Of a DNA stretch of 64,000 nt, positions 59,349 to 62,056 are shown piece after piece. The stretch lies in assembly GCA_947626145.1 (NCBI GenBank), contig CANQRB010000003.1, positions 124,001 through 188,000 of the forward strand. Direction: 5' to 3'. A program made the translations under genes and the position numbers. Every line of letters begins with the position of its first letter. Position 1 is the first letter of the stretch. Under the pieces are notes generated by a model. It saw nothing but the letters and a program-made list of their open reading frames with translations, was not told the origin of the DNA and searched no databases. Origin of the DNA: an uncultured Clostridia bacterium. GTDB taxonomy: Bacteria > Bacillota > Clostridia > UMGS1883.

Positions 59349-60701
59349 TTGAACACTCCGCTCTACACGGCGCTGCTGGAGCTGAAGGCCAGAAATCAGC
59401 TCAGCTTTCATATGCCCGGCCACTTCGACGGCAGGGCCATGCCGGGCTTCGACCGCCTGCTGGAAATCGACACCACCGAGGTGCCGGAAAGTGACAATCT
59501 TTTTCTGCCCGAGGGCCCGATCAAAGAGGCCCAGAACCTGGCCGCCGGATTTTTCGGCGCAAGGGAGACACGTTTTCTGGTGAACGGTTCTTCCGGCGGC
59601 ATACTGGCCATGGTGGGAACCGCCGTGGGCGGCGGCGGAAAGCTGATATGTGACCGCTGCTGCCACAGGAGCCTTATCTCGGCATTGATACTCACCGGGG
59701 CGGAGCCGGTCTGGCTCAGGCCCGAGCCGCTGGACGGCGGCCGTCTGTGGGGCGGCGTCGATCCCGCCGGGCTGGAAAGGGCGATAGAAGAAAATCCCGA
59801 CGCCAAAGGGGTATATCTCACCTCGCCCAACTATTTCGGCCTGTCGGGGGACTTGAAAAGGGCGGCGGAAATCGCCCACGGCCACGGGCTGCCCCTGCTT
59901 GCGGACGCCGCCCACGGGGCCCACTACGGACTGTCGCCGCTGCTGCCCCCCTCGGCGGTGAGCTGCGGGGCCGATCTGGCCGTGGTCAGCGCCCACAAGA
60001 CCCTGCCCTCGGTGACCCAATCCGCGTATCTCCACATAAACGGGGACTTTCCCCTGCTGGACAGTATGCTGAAAATGTACCAGACCTCCTCGCCCAGCTA
60101 CATACTCATGGCCTCCCTGGACTACGCCCGGGCCCTTATGGAAAGGGACGGGGAGCGGCTCTGGACCGATCTGGCCGCGGCCGTAGCCGAAATTTTTCCG
60201 GGACAGGAAAAGCCCCTGGGCCGCTTTGTAAAATACAAAGACCCCTGCCGGCTGGTGCTGCCCACAAAGGCCGCGCCCGAGGCGGCGGCACGGGAGCTTA
60301 GGCTCCGCCACGGCATATCGGTGGAATGTACCTACGGCGGCGGGGTGGTTTGCATACTCAACACCGCTCACAGCCGCGACGACCTTTTGAGGCTGAAAGC
60401 GGCGCTGGACGATGTGAACGCCCGCCTCCCCGAGGGCAAAAAGCCGGTCTGCGCTCCGGTGACGGCCGAAGCGGTCATGACCCCCCGGCAGGCGTTTTTC
60501 TCCAAGAAAGAGGAAATGCCCCTGTCCGAGGCGGCGGGCAGGATCTGCGGCTCCGAGGTGGTAATCTATCCCCCCGGAACGCCTCAGCTCGTACCGGGGG
60601 AGATAATTTCCGCCGAGGCCGCGGAGGCTCTCGCCGAAGCCGCCGCGTCAGGGGCGGAGATACACGGACTCAGAAACGGCAGGGTTACTGTTGTCCTGTG
60701 A
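59349..60701 (+). CDS. Orn/Lys/Arg decarboxylase-family PLP enzyme
   Basis: 450 residues from a TTG start at 59349 (GGAGGAGG 9 nt before). PLP fold type I, prokaryotic ornithine/lysine/arginine decarboxylase group: LSFHMPGHFDGRAMPGF near 18, FLVNGSSGGILAMVGT near 77, LLADAAHGAHYG near 182 (PLP-binding Asp), and the Schiff-base lysine in LAVVSAHKTLPSVTQSAYL near 217. Size matches the YaaO/arginine-decarboxylase-like short form. Substrate cannot be read from sequence. Downstream tmk-holB genes, its common partners in Firmicutes, are missing. Confidence 0.85.
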   Translation: MNTPLYTALLELKARNQLSFHMPGHFDGRAMPGFDRLLEIDTTEVPESDNLFLPEGPIKEAQNLAAGFFGARETRFLVNGSSGGILAMVGTAVGGGGKLICDRCCHRSLISALILTGAEPVWLRPEPLDGGRLWGGVDPAGLERAIEENPDAKGVYLTSPNYFGLSGDLKRAAEIAHGHGLPLLADAAHGAHYGLSPLLPPSAVSCGADLAVVSAHKTLPSVTQSAYLHINGDFPLLDSMLKMYQTSSPSYILMASLDYARALMERDGERLWTDLAAAVAEIFPGQEKPLGRFVKYKDPCRLVLPTKAAPEAAARELRLRHGISVECTYGGGVVCILNTAHSRDDLLRLKAALDDVNARLPEGKKPVCAPVTAEAVMTPRQAFFSKKEEMPLSEAAGRICGSEVVIYPPGTPQLVPGEIISAEAAEALAEAAASGAEIHGLRNGRVTVVL

Positions 60702-61323
60702 CGCAGGCGCCCACGGGAGTAAGGTTGAACAGAGTGTCCATCTCGGCGTCGGGAACCACCACTCCGCCGTAACGGCTGCTCCGGCCGGAAATCGCTCCTC
60801 CGTCGGAGAGGTCAAGTATGCGGGCGCCGCTGGTGCCGATGTCCAGCTGTTTATTAATGACGGTGGCCTTGCCGGCAAAGGTGCCGGACAGCACCGGACA
60901 GCGGGTTTCGGTACCGTTTTTGTGGCGCACTATGATCTCGTCCTTACCCACAAGCAGCTCCACCGGCGACGGGGCCACAGGTATGCACAGCACCTGACCG
61001 GCAAAGAGCACGTCGGGATCTATGCCCATATTGCTCTTGTACAGCATATCGAAGGACACTCCGAAATAGTCGGCTATGGACGTGAAGGTCATTCCCTTCT
61101 CCACCACAAAATAGTTGCCGGAGGAGCAGTTCGGATAATTCTCAGGCACATAGGGCAGGCAGATCTGACGGCCAACCTCAAGATTTTCCGGCACAAGGCT
61201 GGGATTGACCGCCAGTATACCCTCCACGGTGGTTCCGTACCTGCGCGAAATGGCCCAAAGCGTATCTCCCCTTCTTATGACGTAAGGGGTCTGTCCGGCG
61301 GGACAGTTGTTGCAGCTGTTCAT
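60685..61323 (-). CDS. LysM protein with a degenerate L,D-transpeptidase-like domain
   Basis: 212 residues; GGAGGTGATTT site. No signal peptide; starts MNSCNNCPAGQTPYVIRRGD. Two LysM repeats bind peptidoglycan glycans: about 13-58 (YVIRRGDTLWAISRRYGTTV) and about 70-118 (YFVVEKGMTFTSIADYFGVS). The C-terminal 90 residues align by eye with the YkuD/L,D-transpeptidase fold (start VELLVGKDEIIV; end DAEMDTLFNLTPVGACV), but where active enzymes have the SHGCIRM motif this one has SRYGGVVV, so the catalytic His and Cys are missing. Lacking a leader, it may reach the wall or spore coat another way. It overlaps the 3' end of the decarboxylase gene on the opposite strand by 17 bp. Confidence 0.8.
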   Translation of the reverse strand: MNSCNNCPAGQTPYVIRRGDTLWAISRRYGTTVEGILAVNPSLVPENLEVGRQICLPYVPENYPNCSSGNYFVVEKGMTFTSIADYFGVSFDMLYKSNMGIDPDVLFAGQVLCIPVAPSPVELLVGKDEIIVRHKNGTETRCPVLSGTFAGKATVINKQLDIGTSGARILDLSDGGAISGRSSRYGGVVVPDAEMDTLFNLTPVGACVTGQQ

Positions 61324-61327
61324 AAAT

Positions 61328-61362
61328 AAATCACCTCCACATATAATACGCGGAGGTGATTT
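61328..61362 (-). promoter_or_regulatory. RBS-sequestering hairpin before the LysM gene
   Basis: Perfect 11-bp inverted repeat AAATCACCTCC/GGAGGTGATTT with a 13-nt loop. In the minus-strand mRNA the second arm is the LysM Shine-Dalgarno and the first arm is its complement. It could act as a translation switch, or, given the T-rich end, as a weak terminator of the preceding gene. Confidence 0.65.
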
Positions 61363-61368
61363 GATTTG

Positions 61369-61728
61369 TTACTCTACTTTCCCGTCACCGGCCGGACTGC
61401 CGGAGTAAAACGCGCCGGCTATCTGCTGCATCACGGGGTCAAGATAGACATACTTCCCGGCGGCCTGGGTCATTTTGTCCAGAATGTCCTGGGGCAGGGG
61501 CGGATCGCCACGCTTTTCCCGCATGGAGTTGAGACCGGCCTGCATGGCGGCCTTCTCCTCGTCGGAGGCCGGGCGGAAAAAGTCCTTTTCGGCGGGCTTT
61601 TTCATTTCCACGGCCATACGGGTCTTGTCCACCACGATTATGCCGGGGGCCGCCGACCGGTCGTCCTCGGGGTAATACTCATATCTCAGAATTTCTTCCG
61701 TCGTCTCCACAAGCTGAAAAGTTACCAT
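61369..61728 (-). CDS. Conserved protein of unknown function
   Basis: 119 residues; GGGAGATACAT site. N-terminal beta-like segment (VTFQLVETTEEILRYEYYPE, then PGIIVVDKTRMAVEMKKPAE), then a charged helical half (DEEKAAMQAGLNSMREKRGD) ending without a membrane segment. Codon use matches the core genome. No recognised domain. It precedes the LysM gene by 46 bp on the same strand, so the two may share a message. Confidence 0.6.
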   Translation of the reverse strand: MVTFQLVETTEEILRYEYYPEDDRSAAPGIIVVDKTRMAVEMKKPAEKDFFRPASDEEKAAMQAGLNSMREKRGDPPLPQDILDKMTQAAGKYVYLDPVMQQIAGAFYSGSPAGDGKVE

Positions 61729-61932: not shown

Positions 61933-61961
61933 TTGACAAATCCGGCCGGACGTGCTATAAT
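61933..61961 (+). promoter_or_regulatory. Consensus SigA promoter of tRNA-Glu
   Basis: TTGACA (61933-61938), 17-bp spacer, TATAAT (61956-61961), 20 bp before the tRNA. The gap from 61729 to here holds no gene. Confidence 0.9.
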
Positions 61962-61980
61962 AAGCAGGCAGTCGGGAAAT

Positions 61981-62056
61981 GGCTCCATAGTCTAGTGGCC
62001 TAGGACGTCGCCCTCTCACGGCGAAGACCGGGGTTCGACTCCCCGTGGGGTCACCA
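61981..62056 (+). tRNA. tRNA-Glu (anticodon CTC)
   Basis: 76 nt including an encoded CCA. The cloverleaf folds: acceptor GGCTCCA/TGGGGTC with two G-U pairs, anticodon stem TCGCC/GGCGA with loop CTCTCAC (anticodon CTC), T-arm GGGGTTCGACTCCCC. It reads GAG. Stands alone. All DNA to its right is AT-rich, so it may mark the attachment site of an inserted segment. Confidence 0.97.

Follow-up and report, generated by a model that had tools for sequence, protein, structure and literature searches.

A hairpin enclosing a candidate sigma-K-like promoter and the Shine-Dalgarno sequence of a LysM gene as a probable read-through insulator in uncultured Clostridia

The LysM gene on the minus strand begins directly behind an uninterrupted hairpin that contains its Shine-Dalgarno (SD) sequence and a candidate promoter. 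The hairpin is probably a read-through insulator that is bypassed by the gene's own nested promoter, a reading that is built on sequence comparison and RNA folding models. In the proposed mechanism, a mother-cell promoter of the sigma-K type (AC-N17-CATANNATA) would have its -10 box at the hairpin tip and the 5' arm as its spacer; the 3' arm with the SD would be transcribed first. RNA entering from the upstream 119-aa gene would carry both arms and fold, and the LysM start would be shut by the buried SD, by a stop of transcription at the U-rich stretch ahead of the start codon, or by both. RNA begun at the nested promoter would have no 5' arm, would not fold and would be translated. The outcome would be a spore gene that is silent outside sporulation despite a neighbour that leaves no room for a separate terminator. 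The features are listed in Table 1. The window is the whole stretch of DNA analyzed, 64,000 nt in length, from genome G000; other genomes are designated in the same way.

Table 1. Features of the hairpin region (window positions)
Feature	Position	Strand	Remarks
LysM gene, 212 aa, two LysM domains	60685..61323	-	Pfam LysM 85.2 bits
3' arm TATGTGGAGGTGATTT, contains the SD GGAGGTGA	61328..61343	-	
Predicted transcription start, about 7 nt past the -10 box, downstream of the 5' arm	61335..61339	-	predicted from the -10 position
Candidate -10 box CGTATTATA (consensus CATANNATA), hairpin tip	61342..61350	-	one mismatch to consensus
5' arm AAATCACCTCCGCGTA, anti-Shine-Dalgarno, within the -35/-10 spacer	61347..61362	-	
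Candidate -35 dinucleotide AC, 17 nt ahead of the -10 box; one base in common with the stop codon of the upstream gene	61368..61369	-	
Upstream gene, 119 aa, co-directional by codon scoring	61369..61728	-	

The minus-strand hairpin extends from 61362 to 61328. The segment AAATCACCTCC (61362–61352) is fully complementary to GGAGGTGATTT (61338–61328), and the stem is prolonged inward with two G-U pairs, giving 16 stacked pairs without a break and a loop of 3 nt (TTA). The 3' arm is the SD of the LysM gene, whose ATG start codon is at 61323 on the minus strand. A fold of 66 nt of the plus strand has a z value of -4.14, and none of 200 shuffles is equally good. The exact hairpin pattern is present as a single copy in the 2.44-Mb genome (reversed control pattern, 0), and allowing up to three mismatches adds one site, where a similar hairpin is upstream of a 68-aa ORF behind tatD. 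Such hairpins are found at 2 of the 63 SD-bearing starts in the window, both representing the same palindrome, one per strand; five shuffled controls gave 0, 1, 0, 1 and 0.

The stability of the hairpin is -23.1 kcal/mol at 37°C. Modeling shows a mean unpaired probability of 0.00 for the SD in two read-through RNAs, where both arms are present, and of 0.34–0.56 in five RNAs with starts at 61339–61335. The modeled start codon counts against a lock, as it is 0.70 open in read-through RNA versus 0.31–0.48 in the short RNAs. The hairpin recorded in the original prediction is real. Its arms pair fully and sequester the LysM SD as proposed, and the interpretation holds to the extent that the SD is buried when both arms are transcribed; the nested promoter was overlooked, and heat, which had been offered as an opener, does not fit. 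A heat sensor is discounted because of the stability, which is still -14.0 kcal/mol at 60°C, with no melting in the physiological range. An RNA thermometer or a ligand-controlled switch would also place an SD within a hairpin, but the uninterrupted stem and its stability leave this reading with almost no probability. In an Rfam scan of the window, a tRNA is the sole match, so the hairpin matches no family there.

The LysM protein is SafA-like yet under the model cut-off (TIGR02899, 54.1 bits versus 67.85). Its C-terminal part aligns with the YkuD domain of the LysM/YkuD protein of G002 (BLASTP, 39%). The YkuD motif is HGTND..SNGC, and the stretch of the LysM protein (60685–61323, minus strand) that is opposite this motif of the paralog is without its His and Cys. 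The LysM gene product is possibly a dead enzyme, judged by this alignment. The 119-aa gene has its stop codon 6 nt ahead of the 5' arm and ends 31 nt ahead of the SD. Its protein has no match in Pfam or NCBIfam, and of 147 genomes 7, its own among them, have a relative: five members of the genus, G042 and G129. The hairpin is retained in LysM orthologs though the hairpin sequence and the upstream gene vary. On the plus strand, at 61933–62053, there is an exact sigma-70 consensus promoter (TTGACA-17-TATAAT) directly ahead of a tRNA gene.

The sequence AC-N17-CGTATTATA in the window matches a sigma-K-type -35 AC and a CATANNNTA-like -10 box at a set spacing. The sigma-K consensus string is CATANNNTA; a literature search for this string returned no paper. 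The dinucleotide AC is at exactly -17 nt from the best -10 box in 24 of 46 hairpins, and at any other offset in 5 or fewer. The -10 match is better than shuffles of the AT-rich region (p < 0.05) in just 21 of the 46, and the window -10 box also scores 9/12 as a sigma-70 site on the minus strand. In C. difficile, the -35 element is AC for sigma-K and ATA for sigma-E, the -10 boxes being very alike, and the second sigK promoter has AC with a -10 box of CATATAAT (PMC3789822). Together with this sigma-K motif, the AC-17-(-10) spacing implies that the 5' arm would be promoter spacer and the 3' arm the start of the message. The window promoter is best read as sigma-K-like and of the mother-cell sporulation type, with a start site and a sigma factor that we infer; it may instead be a sigma-E or a sigma-70 site. 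Because the promoter is nested within the hairpin, the gene's own transcript should never include the 5' arm. An independent promoter after the hairpin, which the original prediction gave as a refuting result, is an unsuitable test, since the candidate promoter sits inside the hairpin and is what would make the lock work.

A constant element of the LysM orthologs, CATANNAT, is immediately ahead of the SD even where there is no hairpin (G004, G005 and G006). In 21 family genomes, CATANNAT followed by GAGGTGA after 1–9 nt occurs at 53 places versus 6 for the reversed control; some promoters in the set were originally located via CATANNAT. SigK-like matches above 270 bits are present in 11 of the 15 genomes searched. 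A search of G000 for SigK found none and showed SigE only, and the LysM/YkuD gene, a neighbour of sigK in four relatives, was not found in G000. The absence of both the sigK-adjacent gene and SigK suggests one assembly gap. As a separate observation, the same loop read on the plus strand (61340–61348) is CATATAATA with ATA 15 nt ahead, a candidate for a sigma-E-like antisense promoter; this plus-strand box is not retained in G007.

A comparison of hairpins shows that pairing outside of the SD is maintained with changes in the base pairs, the compensatory change among relatives that had been proposed as a check. At the four positions nearest the loop, which are outside the SD, Watson-Crick pairs are present in 27, 33, 31 and 35 of 40 hairpins, where 11–13 are expected (0 of 2000 shuffles for each), and each of the four shows several pair types. 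This count is without 6 of the 46 hairpins, which are near-duplicates; two of these six have an SD-core C-A mismatch. The pairing register was set by the SD core and flank pairs served as tie-breakers alone, and the six SD-core pairs are little informative because the SD itself is fixed. With one hairpin per gene family (n = 13), the value over eight flanking positions is 86 versus 51.8 expected, the maximum in 5000 shuffles being 66. By this covariation, the stem beyond the SD is under selection.

Selection on the stem could also act at the DNA level, if the palindrome were an operator for a dimeric sporulation regulator over the promoter and the RNA pairing were incidental. The arms are symmetrical about the -10 box, and a wobble test of RNA versus DNA pairing is compatible with an operator (G-U 25 versus A-C 14 in the flanks), transitions in the 5' arm of the SD core mostly yielding G-U anyway. 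However, an operator is very improbable, as it gives no reason for stems that differ freely between genes yet stay paired, nor for the dependence on neighbour orientation described below. Insulation by a folded read-through RNA is the preferred reading.

Within two genera of a single uncultured Clostridia family, the layout repeats before genes for YkuD/LysM beside sigK, amidase, DpaA, Coat F, SpoIIID and BofA; the relatives in the collection are MAGs of uncultured Clostridia and Oscillospiraceae. Among the 53 promoter-SD places in the 21 family genomes, the 5' arm beats 99% of shuffles in 12, and 8 of these are counted: three repeat palindromes already counted from the other strand, and a G-U-rich stem with a long loop was dropped. 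Genus g4 has 31 CACCTC-loop-GAGGTG hairpins versus 2 for the reversed control, of which 20 are immediately ahead of an ORF and two others are doubtful. Twelve of the 20 are in sporulation-type families, i.e., LysM (3), dipicolinate synthase A (3), Coat F (3), BofA, SpoIIID and a PdaB-like deacetylase (below the model cut-off). The remaining eight represent TIGR04086, HtrA-like, Zip and an unknown 254-aa family, two apiece, and these family assignments are from one representative scanned per family.

Within the window's genus, the device is present at the LysM gene, at LysM/YkuD next to sigK (G001, G002, G003 and partly G007), at the 68-aa ORF and at Amidase_3. A simple hairpin count in this genus shows no excess (52 versus 68 for the control). 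In 400 kb of the window's genome there are 4 SD hairpins versus a control mean of 1.2, and none is before a known spore gene. Genome-wide use of SD hairpins in the window's own genome is unsupported by these counts. A hairpin over an SD is also a known feature of mobile elements; at G000:C2:26235 (L164), a 543-aa ORF, recombinase-like as named by eye, has a 15-pair hairpin covering its SD.

The presence of the hairpin is linked to the orientation of the neighbouring gene. The comparison covers 59 genes of seven ortholog groups. A hairpin was called at 10 or more pairs, including 8 Watson-Crick pairs, and codon usage served to identify the nearest gene upstream. Exposed genes have a co-directional gene within 150 nt and no separate terminator; protected genes have a divergent gene or a terminator. 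A hairpin is present at 26 of 31 exposed genes versus 3 of 21 protected genes (Fisher, 7e-7), at 21 of 24 versus 2 of 17 in the four protein-search groups alone (2e-6), and one vote per group, genus and context gives p = 0.007, all p values being too small since orthologs share ancestry and are not independent. The context is unknown or far for 7 of the 59 genes, five with a hairpin and two without, which are outside the Fisher count. Seven of 19 DpaA genes (window's genus, no SD found) and weaker matches were left out of the counts, as were, in the context test, the LysM matches of G008, G011, G013 and G016, which have no SD hairpin by eye. The counts include the 68-aa gene of G000 as divergent, though it is behind tatD, and the 68-aa genes of G002 and G007 and the LysM gene of G010 as hairpin-free, though one-mismatch hairpins are present.

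The amidase gene provides the sharpest contrast. In the window's genus the hairpin is present at all seven amidase genes that were found (three exposed, three unknown, one far), and in g4, where the neighbour is divergent, it is present in 0 of 7. Hairpins are also found without exposure: at the LysM gene of G002 (12 pairs, divergent neighbour), at the amidase gene of G003 (neighbour gene 520 nt off) and at the amidase gene of G000, where no gene is called across 378 nt to the contig end. Five exposed genes have no called hairpin. In most exposed cases the upstream stop codon is 26–80 nt ahead of the SD. This proximity, as well as the 6 nt between the 119-aa stop and the stem, would suit translational coupling, in which a ribosome ending the 119-aa gene opens the stem and LysM is translated in step. 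Coupling is nevertheless hardly credible: the upstream genes vary among orthologs (119-aa, 166-aa, 314-aa) and among gene families, spore genes would be co-expressed with unrelated neighbours, and a nested promoter would be pointless.

Another alternative, named in the original prediction as well, is that the hairpin simply serves the upstream gene as an intrinsic terminator and overlaps the next promoter and SD by chance; the hairpin and U-rich stretch would halt read-through, and SD masking would be irrelevant. Behind the SD core, the 46 hairpins have longer T-runs than 23 relatives that have no hairpin (Mann-Whitney, 7e-7), and at dpaA the SD hairpin of other genomes is replaced in G019 and G011 by a separate terminator-like hairpin (dpaA of G016 is terminator-like by eye, which is not reflected in the context counts). 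However, the window site has only ATTTATTT (a T-run of 3) after the SD and is absent from the terminator-scan list, and in 6 of the 46 hairpins, among them those of the PdaB-like gene of G015 and both Zip genes, no T-run exceeds 3. The T-runs may also simply pair with the A-run of the spacer and so lengthen the stem. A plain terminator is considered unlikely, if less so than an operator or coupling. The longer T-runs found with hairpins imply that termination may share the work with SD masking in the insulator proposed here.

Early products of spore genes would be harmful or wasteful, and compact genomes have little intergenic room. A hairpin that carries the promoter of the next gene would provide insulation in about 35 bases, with only self-started RNA translated. 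The evidence is evenly poised on whether this constitutes a clade-wide three-in-one element (spacer as 5' arm, -10 box as tip, SD and U-run as 3' arm and tail) and a general insulation rule for mother-cell spore genes, found at unrelated genes and giving way, in the course of evolution, to a divergent neighbour or to an ordinary terminator. The layout may serve as a sequence signature for mother-cell genes in uncultured Clostridia and as a compact part for synthetic insulation, and the same gene with a hairpin, a terminator or a divergent neighbour offers natural replicates for studies of read-through control.

The mechanism itself is already known from phage T4 gene e and B. subtilis sigG; a search of the open literature, with most subscription journals outside its scope, found no account of repeated use of such a device across spore genes. 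T4 gene e, soc and I-TevI are late genes in which early and middle read-through RNAs conceal the ribosome-binding site (PMC3014915, PMC2988022). They are alike in that the SD is in the 3' arm, the RNA from the gene's own promoter is without the 5' part and longer RNAs are silent, features that are predicted here from sequence and models, and gene e has its late box TATAAATA in the stem-forming leader. Unlike the T4 cases, the present device is chromosomal, has a sigma-K-like sporulation promoter, is repeated at many genes and is tied to neighbour orientation. Intrinsic terminators are alike in having a stem followed by a U-rich stretch, as in many members here, but the present hairpin has the -10 box and SD of the next gene inside and a poor T-run at the window site. 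In B. subtilis, a large hairpin is proposed to block translation of spoIIGA-sigE read-through RNA at sigG, and RNA begun at the sigG promoter is unable to form it (PMC5942855). That case has the same logic and also represents a spore gene behind a co-directional gene; it is a single gene with a stem of 20 or more pairs and a separate smaller RBS hairpin, whereas the present hairpins have a candidate -10 box at the tip in a fixed frame and recur across gene families.
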